This document shows, in pieces, positions 8,604 through 59,565 of a stretch of 64,000 nt of DNA. The DNA lies in the NCBI GenBank assembly GCA_025612245.1, contig JAAXKQ010000004.1, positions 124,001 through 188,000 of the forward strand. Direction: 5' to 3'. This DNA comes from Ignavibacteria bacterium (lineage in GTDB: Bacteria; Bacteroidota; Ignavibacteria; Ignavibacteriales; SURF-24). Below the pieces are notes generated by a model. That model saw nothing but the letters and a program-made list of their open reading frames with translations. It was not told the origin of the DNA and ran no database searches. Position 1 is the stretch's first letter. Every line of letters starts with the position of its first letter. The translations under genes were made by a program, and so were the position numbers.

Positions 8604-11075
8604 ATGGCAGTAAAGAAAAAGACCGGCAGCTCACCTGCAAGGGGAGAAAATTTTTTTGTCATCTCGATGGAAAAAAAGCAGAAGATACTCGGTATCTTTC
8701 TCGTTGTTTTTTCACTCCTCATACTGCTGAGTATAATTTCTTACTCGGCCAGCGATGAGGCTTTTCTCACAAACAGCATATCGGATGTTGCCGTGGACAA
8801 ACCGCAGTCCACGCACAACCTTGTAGGAATTGCCGGGGCTTACGTTGCCTCGTTTCTCGTAAACTCAATTTTCGGCTTCAGCTCGGTGGTCTTCCCGGTA
8901 ATCCTTTTTATCTGGGGCTATTCCATAGCCGTAAGCAAGAATTACCGCCTTGCCATAAACCTCTCGAACTTCCTTTTGGCCTCGGGTGCGCTTATATCTG
9001 CATTTTTCGGCGTCCTCCGTTTTAAGCTTAATCTCTTCAGGGACGTCAATGAGCTTTCGGGTAATGCCGGGGGATTTTTGGGCGTTTCACTCGGCAAACT
9101 CCTAGGCGGGCTTGGAAGCCTTATACTGATTTCAACGCTGATGCTCGTAACGCTCATTATTGCCTTCGACGTGAAGCTGGGCCGTGTAGTGGAGTTCTTT
9201 AAGAGCCTTTTTGAGCAGTCCGAAGCGATCATTGAAAGGGCGAAGGACAACATACAGGAGAAAAAAGAGGCAAAGTCGGCTGAAAACCTGGCGAAAATTA
9301 AAAACCTCAAGCCTGAAAAGCAGAAAAAGCAGAAGGCTTCTGCGGTTCCGGCTCCTGAGGTTGAGGATATCAGTGAGCCGATTGAAGAGGCTGCGGAAAC
9401 TACCATCAAGATCATCCATGCAAATGAGCCGGAAAAGGTGGAAGAGGCCGCCGTTGGAACGCTTTTAAGCGGGGCTGCTCCGCTTAAAGAAGATGGGAAA
9501 AAGGAAGAGAAGAAGAAGTTTACGGACCTTCCCGAAGACGTAATTGACAAGGACGAGGAAGCAAAGCTCCCGAACCAGTGGGAAGAGAAAATCCCATACA
9601 AGAAACCCCCACTGACGCTTTTGGACCAGGCGCCTGAAGAAAGCTACAAAGTAGCCGAAGAGGAACTAAAAAGAAATGCCGAGCTGTTGAAAGAAAAGCT
9701 GGCTCTTTTTGACATAAAAATTGAAGACATTACGGTTACTCCAGGGCCGGTAGTTACACTCTATGAAATTGTTCCGTCTCCAGGCGTTAAGATCAGCCGT
9801 ATAGTAAGTCTTGAGAACGACATAGCTCTTGCGCTTGCAGCGCGCGGCATAAGAATTATTGCCCCAATTCCGGGTAAGAGCGCAATTGGCGTGGAAATAC
9901 CGAATGCCGAGGCGGCACTGGTAAACGCGCGTTCAGCCATAGCAAAGATCAACGACGTGAAGGCGGAACTTCCGCTTGCACTAGGAAAAACAATTGCAGG
10001 CGACGTTTACATTACGGATCTGGCCAAGATGCCGCACATGCTAATTGCAGGCTCAACCGGTTCAGGTAAAAGTGTCGGCATCAACATGATAATTACGAGC
10101 CTCCTTTACGCAAAGGATCCTGCGGACGTGAAGTTTGTCATTGTCGATCCGAAGAAAATTGAGCTTTCGTTTTATGCCAAGCTGAACAAGCATTTCCTTG
10201 CCGTTTCTCCGGACCTGGAAGAGGAGATAATCACAAGTCCGCAGAATGCCCTGCTTGCCCTGAAATCTGTTGAATATGAGATGGAAAAGCGCTATAATAA
10301 GCTTGCTAAGGCGGGTGTAAGAAACATAGTTGATTACAACCTGAAGGTATCCGATCCCAAGCGAAAGCCGAAGGATACCGATGAGATGCAGCATTACAAA
10401 CTTCCATATATTATAGTTATCATAGATGAGCTGGCAGACCTTATGATTACGGCAGGCAAGGAGGTGGAAGAGCCGATTGCACGCCTTGCGCAGCTGGCAA
10501 GAGCCGTTGGAATTCACCTGGTGCTTGCAACGCAGAGGCCTTCGGTAAACGTCATTACGGGCGTCATTAAGGCAAACTTCTCGGCCCGCGTGGCTTATCA
10601 GGTTGCAACAAAAATTGATTCGCGCACAATTCTGGACATGAACGGTGCCGAGCAGCTCTTAGGGCGCGGCGACATGCTTTTTTTGCCCAGCGGAACTCCA
10701 AAGCCGATCAGAATTCAGAACGCTTTTATTTCCACCGACGAGGTGGAAAAAATTACAAATTACATTTATTCGCAGGAAGGGTTCTCAAAACGCTACTTCC
10801 TGCCTTCACTTTACGAGAAGAAAAAAGAAGCGCAGGGAGAATTCCTTGCCGACAAGGATCCGATGTTCGAGGATGCCGCAAGAGTAATCGTAAGGCACCA
10901 GCAGGGCTCGGTTTCCCTTCTTCAAAGAAGGCTTAAACTCGGGTATTCCCGCGCCGCCAGAATCGTGGACCAGCTCGAAGAGGCGGGCATCGTAGGCGGT
11001 GCAGACGGAAGCAAGGTAAGAGCAGTCTTGATTGAAGATGAAGAACAGTTAGAAACAATTTTAAGGGCTTTATAA
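8604..11075 (+). CDS. ftsK: DNA translocase FtsK/SpoIIIE
   Basis: 823 residues. An inner-membrane ATPase that pumps chromosomal DNA through the closing septum and activates dimer resolution. Four hydrophobic segments lie in the first ~200 residues (starting with ILGIFLVVFSLLILLSIISY), followed by a charged Lys/Glu-rich linker (about 200-345), then the motor: Walker A AGSTGSGKS (about 484-492), Walker B YIIVIIDELADLM, the arginine-rich block RLAQLARAVGIHLVLATQRP, and a C-terminal winged-helix gamma domain (about 750-823, QQGSVSLLQRRLKLGYSRAA) that reads polar sequence motifs. Full length, ordinary organisation. LolA follows after 14 bp. Confidence 0.97.
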   Translation: MAVKKKTGSSPARGENFFVISMEKKQKILGIFLVVFSLLILLSIISYSASDEAFLTNSISDVAVDKPQSTHNLVGIAGAYVASFLVNSIFGFSSVVFPVILFIWGYSIAVSKNYRLAINLSNFLLASGALISAFFGVLRFKLNLFRDVNELSGNAGGFLGVSLGKLLGGLGSLILISTLMLVTLIIAFDVKLGRVVEFFKSLFEQSEAIIERAKDNIQEKKEAKSAENLAKIKNLKPEKQKKQKASAVPAPEVEDISEPIEEAAETTIKIIHANEPEKVEEAAVGTLLSGAAPLKEDGKKEEKKKFTDLPEDVIDKDEEAKLPNQWEEKIPYKKPPLTLLDQAPEESYKVAEEELKRNAELLKEKLALFDIKIEDITVTPGPVVTLYEIVPSPGVKISRIVSLENDIALALAARGIRIIAPIPGKSAIGVEIPNAEAALVNARSAIAKINDVKAELPLALGKTIAGDVYITDLAKMPHMLIAGSTGSGKSVGINMIITSLLYAKDPADVKFVIVDPKKIELSFYAKLNKHFLAVSPDLEEEIITSPQNALLALKSVEYEMEKRYNKLAKAGVRNIVDYNLKVSDPKRKPKDTDEMQHYKLPYIIVIIDELADLMITAGKEVEEPIARLAQLARAVGIHLVLATQRPSVNVITGVIKANFSARVAYQVATKIDSRTILDMNGAEQLLGRGDMLFLPSGTPKPIRIQNAFISTDEVEKITNYIYSQEGFSKRYFLPSLYEKKKEAQGEFLADKDPMFEDAARVIVRHQQGSVSLLQRRLKLGYSRAARIVDQLEEAGIVGGADGSKVRAVLIEDEEQLETILRAL

Positions 11076-51115: not shown

Positions 51116-52954
51116 ATGTCACTTAAACTGAAAAGTATATTATTTCTGTTTGTTTTTTCTCTTCAGGCAACTTTTGCGCAGTCTGTAAGGATCTCCAAAG
51201 TAGAGCCCCCGAACTGGTGGACCGGCATGAAATATAACCGTGTGCAGCTGATGGTTTATGGTGAGGGTCTGGAGGGCGTAAAGGCGAGCTTTAATTCGCC
51301 CGGGCTGAAAGTTGTTAAAGTCAACAAATCTGATAATCCCTCTTATGCTTTTATTGATATCGATATCCCTTCTAATGCTGCTCCCGGCACATACAAGCTC
51401 ACGCTTCAGAAGGGGCATGATAAAGCTACGCTGGATTTCCCGCTCCTCAGAAGGGAGAATCCTTCCGGGCGTTTCCAGGGCTTCGGTACCAAGGACGTTC
51501 TTTATATGATAACACCCGACCGTTTTGCCAACGGCGACAGGACAAACGATGAGGTTGCCGGTATGAATGACCATTATCTGCCCGATTCCGCATACGGGCG
51601 CCACGGGGGTGACCTTCAGGGTATCATAGATCATCTTGATTACATTAAGGAGCTGGGCGTTACGACCATCTGGATTAACCCCCTGGTTGAGAACAACACA
51701 CGCTTAAGCTATCACGGCTATGCGGTAACGGATCACTACAAAATCGATCCGCGCTTCGGTACAAACGAGTTGTATAAAAAGTTTGTTGAAGAAGCCCACA
51801 AGCGCGGACTAAAGGTAATACTGGATCACGTCAATAACCATATAAGCTCATTTCATCCTTGGCTTAAAAGCCTTCCGGCAAAGGACTGGCTTAACGGTTC
51901 AAAGGAGGACCACCACACTACGCGTCACATTAACTCCTCGGTCTACGATGTTCACAGCGACCCTGCCGTAAGGGATTTTAATAACCACGGCTGGTTTGTT
52001 AATGAAATGCCCGACTTAAACCAGAAGAATCCCTATCTTGCAAAGTACCTGACTGAGAATACAATCTGGTGGGTGGAATACACGGGTCTGGACGGAATAA
52101 GGGAAGACACGTATCCATATTCCGATCAGAAGTTTCTTTCGGAATGGAACAAAACCATACTTAATGAGTATCCCGGCTTTAATATTGTAGGCGAAGTATG
52201 GATGGGTGATCCTGCATTTCTGGCACCTTTCCAGGCAGGAAGCTTCATACCGAAAGCCTTTGACACCAACCTGCCGACGCTTACGGATTTTGCATTCCGG
52301 GATGCGGCAGCAGACGTATTTGCCAATGCCAGGGGAATGAGAAGGATGTACGACGACATTGCAAAGGATTATCTGTTTGCAAACCCTTCTAACCTGGTTA
52401 CATTCCTGGATAACCACGATGTGGAAAGGATCATGTACCTGCTTCATAGCGACATGAATATGTTCAAGCTGGCTGTAGAGCTGCTTCTAACGACCAGGGG
52501 AATTCCGCAGATTTATTACGGGACCGAGGTCGGTATTGTGGGCGGGCCGGATGACGGGCGCAAGCGTGCCGATTTCCCGGGCGGATTTCCAAACAGCACT
52601 CACAACGCTTTTACAAAGGCAGGCCGCACGGAAAAAGAAAACGAGATATACGACTTTGTGCATAAGCTCCTTGAAATAAGGAAGAACAGTGAAGCCCTTC
52701 AGGATGGAAAACTCATTCATTTCCCGCCTTTTGATGAGGTGTATCCTTATCTGAGAGTATCGGATAAGCAGACAGTTCTGGTTGTTTTGAACGGGAATAA
52801 GGAGGCGCAGAAGCTCAAGGTTTCGTCCCTGGGGGATCATTTTAAGGGTGTGAAAGTCTTAAAGAGTCTTTTGACGGGTAAAGAAATAAACTATACTCCG
52901 GATATTCAGCTTGAGTTAGGCGCCCTGGCGGGTGACATATTTGAAGTTAAATAA
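51116..52954 (+). CDS. Exported GH13 alpha-amylase/cyclomaltodextrinase-like enzyme
   Basis: 612 residues. A signal peptide (LKSILFLFVFSLQATFAQ) is followed by an N-terminal beta-sandwich (VRISKVEPPNWWTGMKYNRV) as in cyclomaltodextrinases/SusA, then the (beta/alpha)8 barrel from about 125: YMITPDRFANGDRTND, ILDHVNNHISSF, the nucleophile in GIREDTYPY (about D331), the acid/base in IVGEVW (about E360), and the transition-state stabiliser in FLDNHDVERIM (about D435). Starch-like alpha-glucans are the expected substrate. GGAGG precedes the ATG. No susC/susD genes are near, so it stands alone. Confidence 0.93.
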   Translation: MSLKLKSILFLFVFSLQATFAQSVRISKVEPPNWWTGMKYNRVQLMVYGEGLEGVKASFNSPGLKVVKVNKSDNPSYAFIDIDIPSNAAPGTYKLTLQKGHDKATLDFPLLRRENPSGRFQGFGTKDVLYMITPDRFANGDRTNDEVAGMNDHYLPDSAYGRHGGDLQGIIDHLDYIKELGVTTIWINPLVENNTRLSYHGYAVTDHYKIDPRFGTNELYKKFVEEAHKRGLKVILDHVNNHISSFHPWLKSLPAKDWLNGSKEDHHTTRHINSSVYDVHSDPAVRDFNNHGWFVNEMPDLNQKNPYLAKYLTENTIWWVEYTGLDGIREDTYPYSDQKFLSEWNKTILNEYPGFNIVGEVWMGDPAFLAPFQAGSFIPKAFDTNLPTLTDFAFRDAAADVFANARGMRRMYDDIAKDYLFANPSNLVTFLDNHDVERIMYLLHSDMNMFKLAVELLLTTRGIPQIYYGTEVGIVGGPDDGRKRADFPGGFPNSTHNAFTKAGRTEKENEIYDFVHKLLEIRKNSEALQDGKLIHFPPFDEVYPYLRVSDKQTVLVVLNGNKEAQKLKVSSLGDHFKGVKVLKSLLTGKEINYTPDIQLELGALAGDIFEVK

Positions 52955-53300: not shown

Positions 53301-56300
53301 ATGACCAATCAGAATAAACCCGTCTTCTCAAGCGAATCCGATAAAAGGTGGAGAGCCTTCAAGGGAACTATACGCTTTATTATTGTTTTAGTGCTTCTGG
53401 CAGGCATTGCCCTTGGCGTTGATATTATTAGCGAAAGCGGAGCCTCACTGCCAAGGCTTCGCGAGCAGAATGAGCTCTACAGGAAAGTATTGAACCCGGA
53501 GCATATTACCACAATTCCCACCAAGGAAAACAGGCTTTACCATAAGTCGCGCAAGGAGCTCATGAGGCTTGTTTCAGCGGGCCATAATAAAAACCACAGG
53601 CAAAGCCTGGTGAAAACGGACCAGATACGTGCCGGATTCTACGTGAACTGGGACGCACAGTCGTTTTACTCCCTCAGGGACAATATAGACAAGATGAACA
53701 TGGTAATGCCCGAATGGCTTTTTGTGCCGGATAATGCGGATACGGTAGTATCGGACATAGATTACCGTGCACTTTCTCTGATGGAAAGCCATAAGGTTAA
53801 GATAATTCCCATGGTTTCAAACTATTTTAACGAGAAATGGAACCCTGGAAACGTTGAACGCATTATTTCCTCCAGGGAACGCCGCACGAAATTTATTCAG
53901 AGCCTCGTATCCATACTCTCAAGGTACAGGTTTCAGGGCGTGAACATAGACTTTGAGAACCTGGAACTAAAGGATAAGCCGAATATGCTGGAATTCCAGA
54001 AGGAACTTTTCTACGAGCTTTCCAGGCGAAGCCTCATTGTAACGCAGGACGTCCCGGTTGGTGACGAGGCTTACGACTACGCTCAGCTGCAGAACTACAA
54101 TAATTACCTCATCCCTATGGCATACGACCTTCATTATTCTGCCAGCAATCCCGGTCCAATTGCAGACATTAAATGGGTGGAATACAATCTTTACAAGATA
54201 GTGAAAGAAACCTCACCCGGGAAAATTATTCTGGGAATTCCAGCCTATGGATACGACTGGCCGCAGGGCGACGAGGGTGAGGATATTACGTATCAGGAAG
54301 CCCTCGTAAGAGCCAAGGAATCTGAGGGGAAAATTGATTTTGACAACAATAATTACAACCTGGATTATACCTATTACGACGACAACGACGAGCCTCATAC
54401 GGTCTGGTTTACCGATGCCGCAACGTGCTATAACCTGATCAGGACGGCAGAGGATTTCGGGACTGCAGGAGTAGCTCTCTGGCGCCTGGGGGGCGAGGAC
54501 CCGAGGCTTTGGACTTTCTACGATAAGAGCCTGAAGCTGGATTCACTAAACCGTAAGCCGCTGGACACCGGGAAACTGCAGACAATTGATCATACCACAA
54601 GCCTCGACTTTGAGGGCGAGGGTGAAATACTGGATATAGTTTCAACCCCTCAGAAGGGCATCATTAATATCGAATACGATAAAGCCGACCAGGTGATTTC
54701 CGAGGAGAATTATGAACAGCTGCCCTCTTCTTTTCTCATTAGAAAATTCGGAAAATCGGAAAAGAAGGTTATTGTGCTTACCTTCGACGACGGTCCCGAC
54801 AGGCGTTATACGCCGGCAATACTGGACATACTGAAGCGCGAGCACGTCCCAGCCGCTTTTTTTGTGCTCGGCGTTAATGCCGAGAACAACCTCAGCCTCA
54901 TAAAAAGGATGTACGACGAAGGCCATGAGATAGGAAACCATTCCTTCATGCATCCGAACCTGGCAATAACAAGCCTTGAAAGGACGCGCTTTGAACTGAA
55001 TTCCACGAGGCGACTCATTGAAAGCATTACAGGGCATTCGACGGTCCTCTTCCGTCCGCCTTATGACGCTGACACGGAACCAGAGCACATCCAGGAAATC
55101 CTTCCTATTATTGAAGCCAGAAACGAGAACTACTATACCGTAGGTGCCTCAATTGACCCGTTGGACTGGCAGGAGGGTGTTTTGGCCGATTCAATTATGG
55201 CAAGAATTAAAAGGGAGGAAAGCTTTGGAAGCATCATACTTCTGCACGACGCAGGCGGGGACCGCTCTCAGACTGTAAAGGAGCTGCCGGAAATTATAAA
55301 ATATTTTAAGGACAGGGGGTATACGTTTGTTTCAGTTGCAAGTCTGCTCGGAAAAACTCGCGATGATGTGATGCCGGCTCTGAAAAATACAAAAGACGTG
55401 TTTCTTTCTAAGGTAAACTGGTCAATTGCAGAGGTTATTTACTGGATTACGCGCTCCATCTTTGCGCTCTTCTTTCTGGGAATTATACTAGCGCTGGGCC
55501 GGCTGATACTGGTTGGAATATTTGCTGCAATGCAGAAGAATAAAAGGCATAGTGAGAAGGCTGTGTTAAAAAAGGATCTGCCCGAAGTAAGCCTCATTGT
55601 TCCGGCATATAATGAAGCCGTGCATGCGGTTAAAAATGTAAAAAACCTATTGCGGTGCAATTACCCGTGTTTTGAAATTGTTTTTGTTGACGACGGTTCC
55701 AGGGATGATACCTACAAAGTGGTAAGTGAAGCCTTTAAGGAAGATTCCAAGGTCAGGGTATTTACAAAGCCCAACGGGGGAAAGGCAACCGCACTAAACT
55801 ACGGCCTTGCACAGGCAAGAGGAGAAGTAGTCGTCTGCATTGATGCCGATACGCAGTTACTGCCCGATGCCGTTTCGGAGCTGGTTAAAACAATACTGGA
55901 AGATGAGAACATAGCCGCCGTAGCAGGTAACGTTAAGGTAGGAAACGAGCGCAACTTTTTAACGAAGTGGCAGTCAATTGAATACATTACGAGCCAGAAT
56001 TTCGACCGCCGGGCATTCGATCTTTTGAATGCAATTACTGTAGTACCGGGTGCAATAGGAGCCTTCAGAAAAAAAGACATACTTGAGGCCGAAGGCTTTA
56101 CCTCCGATACGCTGGCTGAGGATTGCGACATAACGATAAGGCTATTGAGAAACGGGCACATTATAAGGTATAACGAGCACGCCCTGGCATATACCGAAGC
56201 TCCTGAAACCGTAAGGATGTTTTTGCGTCAGCGCTTCCGCTGGTCATTTGGAATTATGCAGAGCCTCTGGAAGCACAGGGATGCAATTTTTAACCACAAA

Positions 56301-56675
56301 TATAAGAATCTCGGGCTCATTGCGCTTCCGAACATTCTCCTGTTTCATTTTATACTGCCTCTTTTCTCGCCCCTGGCAGAGCTGATGATGGTGCTTGGAA
56401 TTCTGGGCGGGTACTGGCAGCAGATGCTGGGTTATTATGCCTTATTCCTCATACTGGATTTTGTTTCGGCTGCAGTTGCATTTATGTTTGAAAAAGAAAA
56501 GCTGAAGCGCCTCTGGCTCATACTGCCGCAGAGGTTTTTATACCGGCAGCTCATGTACTGGGTACTTATCAAGTCGTTTATTGCAGCAATAAAAGGCACA
56601 CTGGTAGGCTGGGGAATACTAAAAAGGACAGGGAAGGTGCAGCTGGATCTTTCTTCTTCAGGCAGAAAAGCTTAA
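53301..56675 (+). CDS. Trifunctional membrane protein: GH18-like hydrolase, NodB deacetylase and GT2 glycosyltransferase
   Basis: 1124 residues. A first membrane helix at about 23-45 (GTIRFIIVLVLLAGIALGVD) leads to a GH18-like YaaH/spore-germination-type domain (about 108-405) with GVNIDFENLE (catalytic Glu 219). Then comes a NodB polysaccharide deacetylase domain (about 488-690): LTFDDGPDRRYTPAIL, GNHSFMHPN (zinc His pair) and LFRPPYD. A second membrane helix (about 715-740) precedes a family 2 glycosyltransferase domain: LIVPAYNEAVHAVKN, FVDDGSRDDTYK (about 794), DADTQ (about 847), EDCD (about 937) and LRQRFRW (about 977), followed by several membrane helices. Combined synthesis, deacetylation and cleavage of a beta-1,6/1,4-GlcNAc exopolysaccharide is a reasonable inference. 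No other export gene is adjacent. Confidence 0.88.
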   Translation: MTNQNKPVFSSESDKRWRAFKGTIRFIIVLVLLAGIALGVDIISESGASLPRLREQNELYRKVLNPEHITTIPTKENRLYHKSRKELMRLVSAGHNKNHRQSLVKTDQIRAGFYVNWDAQSFYSLRDNIDKMNMVMPEWLFVPDNADTVVSDIDYRALSLMESHKVKIIPMVSNYFNEKWNPGNVERIISSRERRTKFIQSLVSILSRYRFQGVNIDFENLELKDKPNMLEFQKELFYELSRRSLIVTQDVPVGDEAYDYAQLQNYNNYLIPMAYDLHYSASNPGPIADIKWVEYNLYKIVKETSPGKIILGIPAYGYDWPQGDEGEDITYQEALVRAKESEGKIDFDNNNYNLDYTYYDDNDEPHTVWFTDAATCYNLIRTAEDFGTAGVALWRLGGEDPRLWTFYDKSLKLDSLNRKPLDTGKLQTIDHTTSLDFEGEGEILDIVSTPQKGIINIEYDKADQVISEENYEQLPSSFLIRKFGKSEKKVIVLTFDDGPDRRYTPAILDILKREHVPAAFFVLGVNAENNLSLIKRMYDEGHEIGNHSFMHPNLAITSLERTRFELNSTRRLIESITGHSTVLFRPPYDADTEPEHIQEILPIIEARNENYYTVGASIDPLDWQEGVLADSIMARIKREESFGSIILLHDAGGDRSQTVKELPEIIKYFKDRGYTFVSVASLLGKTRDDVMPALKNTKDVFLSKVNWSIAEVIYWITRSIFALFFLGIILALGRLILVGIFAAMQKNKRHSEKAVLKKDLPEVSLIVPAYNEAVHAVKNVKNLLRCNYPCFEIVFVDDGSRDDTYKVVSEAFKEDSKVRVFTKPNGGKATALNYGLAQARGEVVVCIDADTQLLPDAVSELVKTILEDENIAAVAGNVKVGNERNFLTKWQSIEYITSQNFDRRAFDLLNAITVVPGAIGAFRKKDILEAEGFTSDTLAEDCDITIRLLRNGHIIRYNEHALAYTEAPETVRMFLRQRFRWSFGIMQSLWKHRDAIFNHKYKNLGLIALPNILLFHFILPLFSPLAELMMVLGILGGYWQQMLGYYALFLILDFVSAAVAFMFEKEKLKRLWLILPQRFLYRQLMYWVLIKSFIAAIKGTLVGWGILKRTGKVQLDLSSSGRKA

Positions 56676-56708: not shown

Positions 56709-57188
56709 TTAGTCAAAATCCAGTCCATCTCCATAAGACTCATAGAATCTGCCTTTTAAGGCCAGGACAAGGATGCCGATGAAAAGAATAACAACCGGTA
56801 TGAAGGCGAGGGCCATTGCCGAATATTCAAGCATATTTGGCATCCATGCCCCGTCTGCAATTGTGGCAATTGCAAAGACTATGGCCGAGTACATGAGGAC
56901 GCTCAGATTCAGCAATCCCACAAAAAGCCGCCATCTTGAATGTGCAAAATAGCCCCAGATGAAGGCCAGTGTGAGCAGGCAGTTCAGCGCGTCCATAATT
57001 CCCATGCCAATCAGGAAGTTCCCGGCCTGCCAGTGCCATCCGTTCATAGGAGGCGAAGCGGGAAAGACAAAGATCTTAAATTGAATGAGCAATTGTGCTG
57101 CCCTGAGCAGGAAGGTAAGGTGTGCTATCTGAAATACTGCATACCAGATTACAAGGACCCTTATAAAACCACTGTTTAGATTTTTCAT
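56709..57188 (-). CDS. Small four-helix membrane protein of unknown function
   Basis: 159 residues with four hydrophobic segments (VLVIWYAVFQIAHLTFLL, LIGMGIMDALNCLLTLAFIW, LLNLSVLMYSAIVFAIATIA, LAFIPVVILFIGILVLAL) and a short polar C-terminus (RFYESYGDGLDFD). No family recognised. It converges on the fusion enzyme and diverges from the PAS kinase gene; it could be part of neither. Confidence 0.65.
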   Translation of the reverse strand: MKNLNSGFIRVLVIWYAVFQIAHLTFLLRAAQLLIQFKIFVFPASPPMNGWHWQAGNFLIGMGIMDALNCLLTLAFIWGYFAHSRWRLFVGLLNLSVLMYSAIVFAIATIADGAWMPNMLEYSAMALAFIPVVILFIGILVLALKGRFYESYGDGLDFD

Positions 57189-57474
57189 ACCTAAGTTATT
57201 TTGTGTTGCTGTTTTGCAAAAGCCGGCCTCTTTTAAGCAGTACTTTAAGCTGTACTTTTCTAATAAAGAAATAAAGAATTTATTAAAACGAAAGGCTTAA
57301 AGACGGGTCCAATGTACGGGGTCTTTTGTGTGCGCTAAGTGGCTTTTCGCATCTTTTCGTGCCATTTTTATTGCCTTCCGGGAACAAACCGCCGGGTTTT
57401 ATTTTAGAAAAATAATACTTATTTTTTATCGTTTTTTTGCTAAATTTGCTAAAAGTAAACAAAATCAGAGACTT
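57189..57474. other. Divergent gap before the PAS kinase
   Basis: 286 bases, A+T-rich in its middle. No gene of its own; an upstream extension of the kinase frame (to 57328) lies in it but starts without a signal. It should contain the two divergent promoters, not resolved by eye. Confidence 0.45.
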
Positions 57475-59565
57475 ATGGGCTACATTAAACAGTTCCTGCT
57501 TTTATTCCTGATGATTGTAGTATGCGGATACTTGTTCTATGACGCCTATTACGACGTGAAGGAAGAAACAGTTAAGCAGTTCAATAAAGAACAGAATGTT
57601 CATGCCCTGCAGGCTGCTACCGGGATCCGGACATTTTTTAACCATTACAAAGACCAGCTGGGTTATTTTTCCGTCCAGGATGAAGTTGCCAATTTGAACC
57701 GGGACGGAAAAGAGCTGCTTACACGTTTTTATTTCAGCCACAGGCATGAAATTATGGCCGTAACCCGTATCGATTCCGCCGGGAGGGTCCTTTTTACGGC
57801 TCCTTACAACAGCTTTCTCATGGGCCGGAATATATCTTATCAGGAGCACGTTAAAAGATTCCTTAAGTTCCGCAAAGATGTTTTAAGTGACGTTTTTAAT
57901 GCAGTCCAGGGCTACAGGAGCGTAGCCTATTATGTGCCGGTATTTCAGAACGGCAGGTTTAAAGGCGGAATTGCAGTCCTTGTTCCGTTTGAAAACCTGA
58001 GCAAAAATTTCCTGAAGGACATTAAGGTGCGCGACCACGGTACGGCGTGGATTGTAAGTCATGAGGGAACGATACTCTACGATTCTGTTGCAGCAAACAA
58101 CTTTAAGCCGGTTTATGAAGTCTTCAGGAACTCTCCCACGGCACTTTCAATGATAAGAAAGATACTCAAGGGGCAGACCGGTTCGGGTGAGTATTATAAG
58201 ATCAGTCCGGACGCAAAAAGCGGCAGCTCCGAGGTGAGAATGCACGCCGTTTACCTTCCGGTTCATATAGCCGACCAGTTCTGGTCAATTATCGTTTCAA
58301 CGCCTGAAAAAGAAGTGCTTGGGGCAATGAGGGGGTTCATAATTAAGTGGCTCTCCATAATTATTCTACTCATCAGCGGGATTCTGGTCTACCTTTATTA
58401 TGCCGTCAAAGCCGAGGCAATCATAAAGGAGGAGAAAAGGCGAAGGCTGGCTGAAAGGGCCCTGAAGGATTCGGAAAAGAAATTCAGGACGTTAGTGGAA
58501 CTTTCTCCTGATGCCATAACGCTTATTGACCTTGACTCAAGGATCCTGGCCTGCAATAAGCAGGCGGCGCAGATGCTGGGGTTTGTCTCACCGGAAGATC
58601 TGATTGGAAAAAACTCGCTGGATATGATAGTCCCGGGCGACAGGCGAGAGGTTGAAAAACGTTTCCTTGAGCTCCTAAAAGAAGGCAGCCTGAGGAATGT
58701 GGAAACTAAATTTATACGGAAGGACGGGCATGAGTTTCCGGTGGAATTCAGCACAGGGCTTGTTTGCGACTCAAGCGGGAAGCCCCTTTCTTTTACCTGT
58801 GTCGCACGCGACATTACGAGCCGCAAAGAGGCTGAAAAGGAGCTCCTTGAGGCCAAGGAAAGGGCTGAGAAGTTGGACAAGCTTAAATCGGAATTCCTGG
58901 CGCAGATGTCGCATGAAATCCGCAGCCCTATAAATTCGGTCCTTAGTTTTTCTGGCCTCCTGGAAGAAGAGCTCGACGGCAGGCTGAGTGAGGATCTGCA
59001 GACAAGCTTTTCCATCATAAGAAATGCAGGAAAGAGGATTATACGTACGGTGGATCTGATACTTAACATGTCGGAAATTCAGACCGGCACCTACGAACTG
59101 ATGCCCAGGAAATTTGACCTGATGAAAGACGTGCTCGAAAAGCTTCAGATGGAATTCTGCCATCAGGCAAAGGACAAAGGAATTGAGCTCTTGCTTGAAA
59201 ACAGAACTGGCAAGCAGGAGGTAAAGATCTTTGCAGATGAGTACACTGTAGGACAGATATTCAATAATCTTGTGAACAACGCGGTTAAGTACACGGACAG
59301 GGGAAAGATCAGCATGTGCGTGGAAAGGAATGAAAGTGACGATTTAGTTGTGAGCGTACGTGATACGGGAATAGGGATTTCGGAGGAGTACCTGCCGAAC
59401 CTATTTAAGCCTTTTACACAGGAAGAGCAGGGCTATACAAGAAAGTATGAAGGAAACGGGCTTGGCCTTGCGCTCGTAAAAAAGTACTGTGAAATGAATG
59501 ATCTTAAGATTGAAGTGGAGAGTAAGAAGGGACTGGGCTCTGTATTCAGGATAATGTTCAGTTAA
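57475..59565 (+). CDS. Membrane PAS sensor histidine kinase with periplasmic Cache-like domain
   Basis: 696 residues from ATG 57475, chosen because it starts directly before the first membrane segment (MGYIKQFLLLFLMIVVCGYL); the frame is open to 57328. A periplasmic dCache-like domain (about 30-290; AVTRIDSAGRVLFTAPYNSF) is followed by a second membrane helix (about 295-320, WLSIIILLISGILVYLYYAV), a PAS domain (FRTLVELSPDAITLIDLDSR, VARDITSRKEAEKEL), HisKA with phospho-His in AQMSHEIRSPINS and HATPase with NLVNNAVKYTDRGK and YEGNGLGLALVKKY. No response regulator is fused or adjacent, so the partner is elsewhere. A terminator follows. Confidence 0.9.
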   Translation: MGYIKQFLLLFLMIVVCGYLFYDAYYDVKEETVKQFNKEQNVHALQAATGIRTFFNHYKDQLGYFSVQDEVANLNRDGKELLTRFYFSHRHEIMAVTRIDSAGRVLFTAPYNSFLMGRNISYQEHVKRFLKFRKDVLSDVFNAVQGYRSVAYYVPVFQNGRFKGGIAVLVPFENLSKNFLKDIKVRDHGTAWIVSHEGTILYDSVAANNFKPVYEVFRNSPTALSMIRKILKGQTGSGEYYKISPDAKSGSSEVRMHAVYLPVHIADQFWSIIVSTPEKEVLGAMRGFIIKWLSIIILLISGILVYLYYAVKAEAIIKEEKRRRLAERALKDSEKKFRTLVELSPDAITLIDLDSRILACNKQAAQMLGFVSPEDLIGKNSLDMIVPGDRREVEKRFLELLKEGSLRNVETKFIRKDGHEFPVEFSTGLVCDSSGKPLSFTCVARDITSRKEAEKELLEAKERAEKLDKLKSEFLAQMSHEIRSPINSVLSFSGLLEEELDGRLSEDLQTSFSIIRNAGKRIIRTVDLILNMSEIQTGTYELMPRKFDLMKDVLEKLQMEFCHQAKDKGIELLLENRTGKQEVKIFADEYTVGQIFNNLVNNAVKYTDRGKISMCVERNESDDLVVSVRDTGIGISEEYLPNLFKPFTQEEQGYTRKYEGNGLGLALVKKYCEMNDLKIEVESKKGLGSVFRIMFS

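Follow-up and report, generated by a model that had tools for sequence, protein, structure and literature searches.

A GH18-CE4-GT2 membrane protein of an Ignavibacteria bacterium as a probable single-gene synthase and processor of poly-N-acetylglucosamine

Enzymes that make, deacetylate and cut N-acetylglucosamine polymers have been described in several arrangements. PgaB is described as a deacetylase fused to a dPNAG-cleaving hydrolase (PMC5933820), and its CE4 domain is reported to be circularly permuted (PMC5855634). The Streptomyces protein MatB (SCO2962/SLI_3306), with the order CE4-TM-GT2, is needed for dispersin-B-sensitive PNAG; its GT2 domain is nearest to PgaC and its CE4 domain nearest to PgdA, and tests with antibody F598, dispersin B and periodate identified its product as PNAG (PMC5972031, PMC4391728). 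A protein of Acetivibrio cellulolyticus, ZP_09465738, appears as "GH18-CE4-GT2" in a table of a 2012 paper (PMC3413522). The GH18-CE4-GT2 architecture is thus already known, from that listing and from many bacteria, and in the open-access literature, to which the search was confined, no experimental study of such a protein was found. Added here are its spread, a check of its catalytic residues and the finding that particular lineages have lost the GH18 site.

The window analysed is a stretch of 64,000 nucleotides from the genome of an Ignavibacteria bacterium (contig JAAXKQ010000004.1), in which one open reading frame encodes the fusion protein. Its features are as follows.

53301..56675, + strand: open reading frame of the GH18-CE4-GT2 membrane protein, 1124 aa, ATG start, no internal stops.
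53376..53432, + strand: N-terminal membrane helix, aa 26-44, N-terminus predicted inside (hydropathy 2.72; K/R 5 before and 2 after; model helix 14-46).
53619..54539, + strand: GH18 TIM-barrel domain, aa 107-413, predicted outside (Pfam; Z 33.2 to 5jh8 and 33.0 to SleL 4s3k).
53949..53957, + strand: D217-F-E219 of the GH18 domain, predicted assisting Asp and acid Glu (alignment to solved GH18s; both kept in 31 of 39 rows).
54753..55355, + strand: CE4/NodB deacetylase domain, aa 485-685, predicted outside (Pfam; PgdA 2c1g at E 4.8e-38; site residues kept in 42 of 42 rows).
55458..55514, + strand: middle membrane helix, aa 720-738 (hydropathy 2.72; K/R 1 before and 4 after; model helix 697-751).
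55587..56300, + strand: processive-type GT2 catalytic domain, aa 763-1000, predicted cytosolic (Pfam; D, DxD, ED and QxxRW intact in 42 of 42 rows; aa 717-1101 with Z 29.2 to 6yv7).
56310..56489, + strand: C-terminal membrane helices, aa 1004-1063 (hydropathy 1004-1022 and 1045-1063; model helices 999-1036, 1039-1064 and 1068-1098).

The three domains score far above their Pfam cut-offs, with E-values far below chance: Glyco_hydro_18 (PF00704, aa 156-397) with 88.5 bits against 29.6, Polysacc_deac_1 (PF01522, aa 485-589) with 119.7 against 23.1, and Glycos_transf_2 (aa 764-925) with 114.1 against 23.3. A sequence-only reading of this DNA had proposed three enzyme domains in a single membrane protein with all key catalytic motifs visible. 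The first point is borne out by Pfam, the catalytic residues, the GH18 fold and hydropathy; the second is confirmed by alignment to solved GH18s and to PgdA and by the motif positions, which place the key residues of GH18, CE4 and GT2 in register.

The GH18 and CE4 domains are predicted to lie outside and the GT2 domain inside, because lysine and arginine number five against two across the first helix and four against one across the second, with the larger count on the inner side in each case (positive-inside rule). This agrees with the two outward enzyme domains and the inward transferase of the earlier reading; hydropathy and the positive-inside rule split the domains between the two sides of the membrane in this prediction rather than leaving them all on one. 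Hydropathy also gave a possible further, weaker helix at aa 1084-1102. Twelve rows were submitted to the helix scan, two of them CE4-GT2 only and one returning no result, and a helix pair flanks GH18-CE4 in all nine fusions scanned, the window protein among them. The helices of an AlphaFold model made with 8 sequences agree with hydropathy; since its mean pLDDT is 70.6 and its pTM 0.44, it was not used for the mutual placement of the domains.

With this arrangement, the fusion is probably a one-gene membrane synthase and processor of partly deacetylated poly-N-acetylglucosamine. The cytosolic GT2 would add GlcNAc from UDP-GlcNAc, the presumed donor, and would pass the growing chain outward through the surrounding membrane helices. 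Tethered on the outer face, the CE4 domain would take off some of the acetyl groups and the GH18 domain would cut or trim the chain as it emerges, either to set its length or to release it from the synthase. All three domains would then work on one chain, and if they do, a single gene could serve to study how a biofilm-type polymer is made, deacetylated and controlled in length, and could be transferred to a laboratory host.

In GH18 enzymes, which cleave beta-1,4 links, the textbook motif is DGxDxDxE, and the catalytic D-x-E is accompanied by MxYD and a C-terminal tryptophan. All three elements are in register in the window protein, as D217/E219 (in QGVNIDFE), M273-A-Y275-D276 and W394 (the tryptophan of ALWRLG). 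QGVNIDFE aligns with GINVDFE of 5jh8, GVTIDFE of YdhD (3cz8) and IHFDFE of 4s3k; Q212 and N215 replace the first two Asp of DGxDxDxE, and the second of these is likewise missing in 5jh8, 3cz8 and 4s3k. The GH18 part of the AlphaFold model superposes on 5jh8 and SleL 4s3k over 303 aligned residues each, with rmsd 2.4 and 2.7, respectively. The fold-comparison list consists mostly of GH18 structures and says little on CE4.

The CE4 domain was judged by its motifs and by profile and sequence matches. CE4/NodB enzymes carry D-D, H-x3-H, R-P-P-Y, D-W and H-D motifs, and the fusion has them in canonical order as D496/D497, H547/H551, R585-PPY, D622-W623 and H649-D650, lining up with those of Streptococcus PgdA. 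PgdA 2c1g is the nearest solved relative of this domain; 4wcj, presumably an IcaB-type deacetylase, reaches only E 2. The outer domains might accordingly be thought to act on peptidoglycan, by PgdA-like deacetylation and SleL-like cutting, with the GT2 polymer attached to the wall or guided through it: PgdA and SleL, their solved relatives, act on peptidoglycan, and the gene occurs in Gram-positives and Gram-negatives alike. Against this, the two domains are fused to a PgaC-like synthase, MatB offers a precedent for a PNAG product, and a wall-binding domain is absent among the Pfam matches of the protein, which leaves the wall reading very unlikely.

The residues of the GT2 domain are D798, D848-A-D850, E940-D941 and Q977RFR980W981, completing the processive D, DxD, ED, QxxRW set, and aa 717-1101 of the model match the GT2-type enzyme 6yv7 over 340 aligned residues with rmsd 3.5. 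Among the NCBIfam profiles the best for this domain is PgaC_IcaA (TIGR03937) with 194.2 bits, below its curated cut-off of 422.3, followed by NodC with 92.4 and CelA with 72.6. PgaC_IcaA, NodB and NodC each match 8 of 8 aligned members.

These types bear on the linkage of the product. PNAG is a fair first guess because MatB, with the same mix of PgaC-like GT2 and PgdA-like CE4, gives PNAG. The CE4 and GH18 types seen here act on beta-1,4 links, which counts against a beta-1,6 product, and a chitosan-like reading is kept open because of the extra GH18 domain, a family of beta-1,4 cutters. Here the product would be a beta-1,4 chitosan-like polymer or oligomer made by a GT2 acting as a chitin or NodC-type synthase, deacetylated by CE4 and cut or set in length by GH18. 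This is a tenable if tentative alternative: the GH18 domain is nearest to the Chromobacterium chitinase structure and SleL, the CE4 domain to PgdA, and both Nod profiles match throughout the aligned members, but on the GT2 domain the PgaC_IcaA profile reaches about twice the NodC score (194 against 92 bits), and MatB, as described, has the same GT2 and CE4 types and yet a product that behaves as PNAG. Weighed by judgement rather than computed, a PNAG-like beta-1,6 chain has about an even chance and is somewhat more likely than the beta-1,4 chitosan-like one, which keeps a substantial minority share, other products taking the rest. More specifically, the family might be a widespread single-gene chitosan-type machine in which GH18 and the PgdA-like CE4 process the beta-1,4 GlcNAc chain leaving their own GT2 into partly deacetylated chains of defined length, the GH18 having turned into a non-catalytic chain guide in some lineages; we regard this as rather doubtful, and the synthase and processor of partly deacetylated poly-N-acetylglucosamine is the reading carried forward.

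The homologue search, which the earlier reading had proposed as a check, recovered the same domain order in the window's own phylum and beyond. At E 1e-60, matches were found in 51 of 296 phylum genomes; 17 of these, the window's own genome included, span all three domains, and the other 34 are GT2 only. Within the order, 9 of 164 genomes match at E 1e-100, the copies in G320 and G386 ending at contig edges. Seven further loci, from a Bacteroidota MAG (L043, 72% identity), Flavihumibacter, a Sphingobacteriales MAG, Bacillus sp. J33, Sutcliffiella horikoshii, a Gemmatimonadetes MAG and Sinisalibacter, are all collinear with the window protein over GH18, CE4 and GT2 by alignment; the GH18 part is below the Pfam cut-off in L048 and missed by Pfam in L049. 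Among 72,556 plasmid records there were 32 matches, 22 of them covering at least 80% of the query, with Prevotella nigrescens, Deinococcus, Sphingobium, Novosphingobium and Sulfitobacter among the hosts and most annotated as plain glycosyltransferase. Members beyond the phylum thus belong to Bacillota, Gemmatimonadota, Alphaproteobacteria and Deinococcota, and the GH18-CE4-GT2 protein is a widespread family that is patchy within the window's own order. In two Bacillota members an in-frame extra N-terminal stretch of about 135-160 aa (L045:7272-7748 and L046:7596-8000) holds many hydrophobic segments and has no Pfam match; it is possibly a fourth domain.

In a tree of 31 rows, the window protein clusters with L043 and with its order-mates L050, L052 and L053. 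Three other members of the order (L055-L057) are placed apart, beside the two Bacillota rows; because this placement carries a long-branch warning, horizontal transfer is not claimed for them.

The active sites were compared in an alignment of 42 rows, comprising 17 from the phylum (the window's included), 7 from the order, the 7 named loci and 11 of the 32 plasmid records, with L051, which duplicates L043, left out. All 42 rows share D496, D497, H547, H551, R585, D622 and H649 in CE4 and D798, D848, D850, D941, Q977, R980 and W981 in GT2, which suggests that selection acts on both activities. D217 and E219 occur together in 31 of the 39 rows with a GH18-like segment; the site is broken in the other 8, a biased rate, since the plasmid rows were picked by hand and enriched in Rhodobacterales after the broken site of L049 had been seen. 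The remaining three rows have no GH18 segment (L054, which is cut, and L066 and L067, which are CE4-GT2 only). The broken sites fall in one Bacteroidota genus (L008, L011, L012) and in Rhodobacterales (L049, L072-L075). GH18 cutting is thus not essential to the family, and the pattern suggests, as far as conserved residues can tell, that synthesis and deacetylation form a fixed core and GH18 cutting a losable step. Repeated loss of the GH18 site alone would offer a natural comparison for what cutting adds.

The same losses can be taken to mean that GH18 is mainly a binding or guiding barrel that holds the emerging chain, with hydrolysis dispensable, since D-x-E is missing from those eight rows and the CE4 and GT2 sites are complete in all 42. 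This is unlikely: D217 and E219, which mere binding does not need, are kept in the window protein and 30 other rows, down to a GH18-domain identity to the window of about 32% (L048, L055). A cutting GH18, as in the synthase and processor proposed above, remains the preferred reading for the window protein.

Both groups with broken sites show further particulars. In L008, L011 and L012, D217 or E219 is changed and Y275 is replaced by I; L021 and L022, from a different genus of that family, are unchanged. All five Rhodobacterales members examined (L049, L072-L075) have a broken GH18 site. In the four annotated Rhodobacterales loci, L072-L075, a gene annotated DUF3131 comes next on the same strand and is possibly a partner of these fusions; no Pfam family was found in two cut copies of this neighbour (L072, L073), and the name rests on the record annotation.

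Around the window's gene, flanks were compared at length in its two nearest relatives of those examined in this way, L043 and L080, a same-genus genome whose copy is 88% identical. The upstream gene at 51116-52954, alpha-amylase-like by reading of its sequence, is kept in both, as is a small hydrophobic ORF at 56709-57188 (- strand) after the fusion gene, which has no Pfam match. Neither flanking gene was seen in the other named loci or in L081 (62% identity), L080 and L081 being judged from ORF lists. The neighbourhoods of L043-L049 were compared by BLAST against the window proteins, which speaks to synteny only, and ORF calls are unreliable in the GC-rich L048 and L049. Just downstream, an ORF at 57328-59565 (+ strand) reads as a sensor histidine kinase; a similar one is present in L080, and none at that place in L043. 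Elsewhere, an AcvB/VirJ-type gene adjoins the fusion in Sphingomonadales (L070:2777-3529, - strand, and 9956-11027; L076:4617-5354), in L070 it is annotated as lysyl-phosphatidylglycerol hydrolase, and mprF lies close to it. Next to the fusion gene of Deinococcus sp. KNUC1210 is a gene for a sensor diguanylate cyclase (L068:7327-8862), which hints at regulation by c-di-GMP. In Kocuria rosea, a CE4-GT2 gene adjoins a separate gene annotated as chitinase; the view of this pair as a split-gene version is weakened by a GH18 match of 22.9 bits against the cut-off of 29.6 and by a BLAST match to the window's GH18 at E 0.16.

No pga or ica genes lie beside the fusion in the annotated plasmid loci examined. 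In the window's own genome (97% complete, 44 contigs), the PgaA family (TIGR03939) gave only sub-cut-off matches, the best with 30.8 bits against 366.65, and the PgaB family (TIGR03938) gave no match at E 1e-5; a classical pga system was rejected there because neither family has a member over its cut-off. The fusion gene therefore seems to stand alone. The earlier suggestion of a self-contained machine that needs no multi-gene locus fits in so far as pga- and ica-type genes are absent next to the fusion in the annotated homologue loci; full self-sufficiency is unsupported: neither the PgaA nor the PgaB family scores over cut-off in the genome, MatB needs MatA, and in a Gram-negative cell the chain would still have to leave through the outer membrane.

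Compared with known systems, the SleL/YdhD-type GH18s and the Chromobacterium chitinase 5jh8 resemble the window's GH18 domain in fold and D-x-E site and, to our knowledge, are not fused to a polymer synthase. The Acetivibrio cellulolyticus protein, compared by its listing alone, combines these three modules in a single polypeptide and is listed with them in this order; it is a table row among non-cellulosomal enzymes, and its function is not given in that table. E. coli PgaB and PgaC likewise provide synthesis, deacetylation and hydrolysis of a single GlcNAc polymer, but as separate proteins, with CE4 followed by GH153 rather than GH18 in PgaB, and with PgaA and PgaD as partners. MatB, by its description, has CE4 outside, a membrane helix and GT2 inside in the same order as the window protein, and a Streptomyces plasmid relative (H24) matches the window protein at 35% over aa 564-1114; unlike the window protein, MatB is described without GH18, works with MatA and has PNAG proven by experiment. 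The single gene would thus cover the roles of E. coli PgaC and PgaB (GT2; CE4 and GH153), or those of Streptomyces MatB plus a hydrolase.
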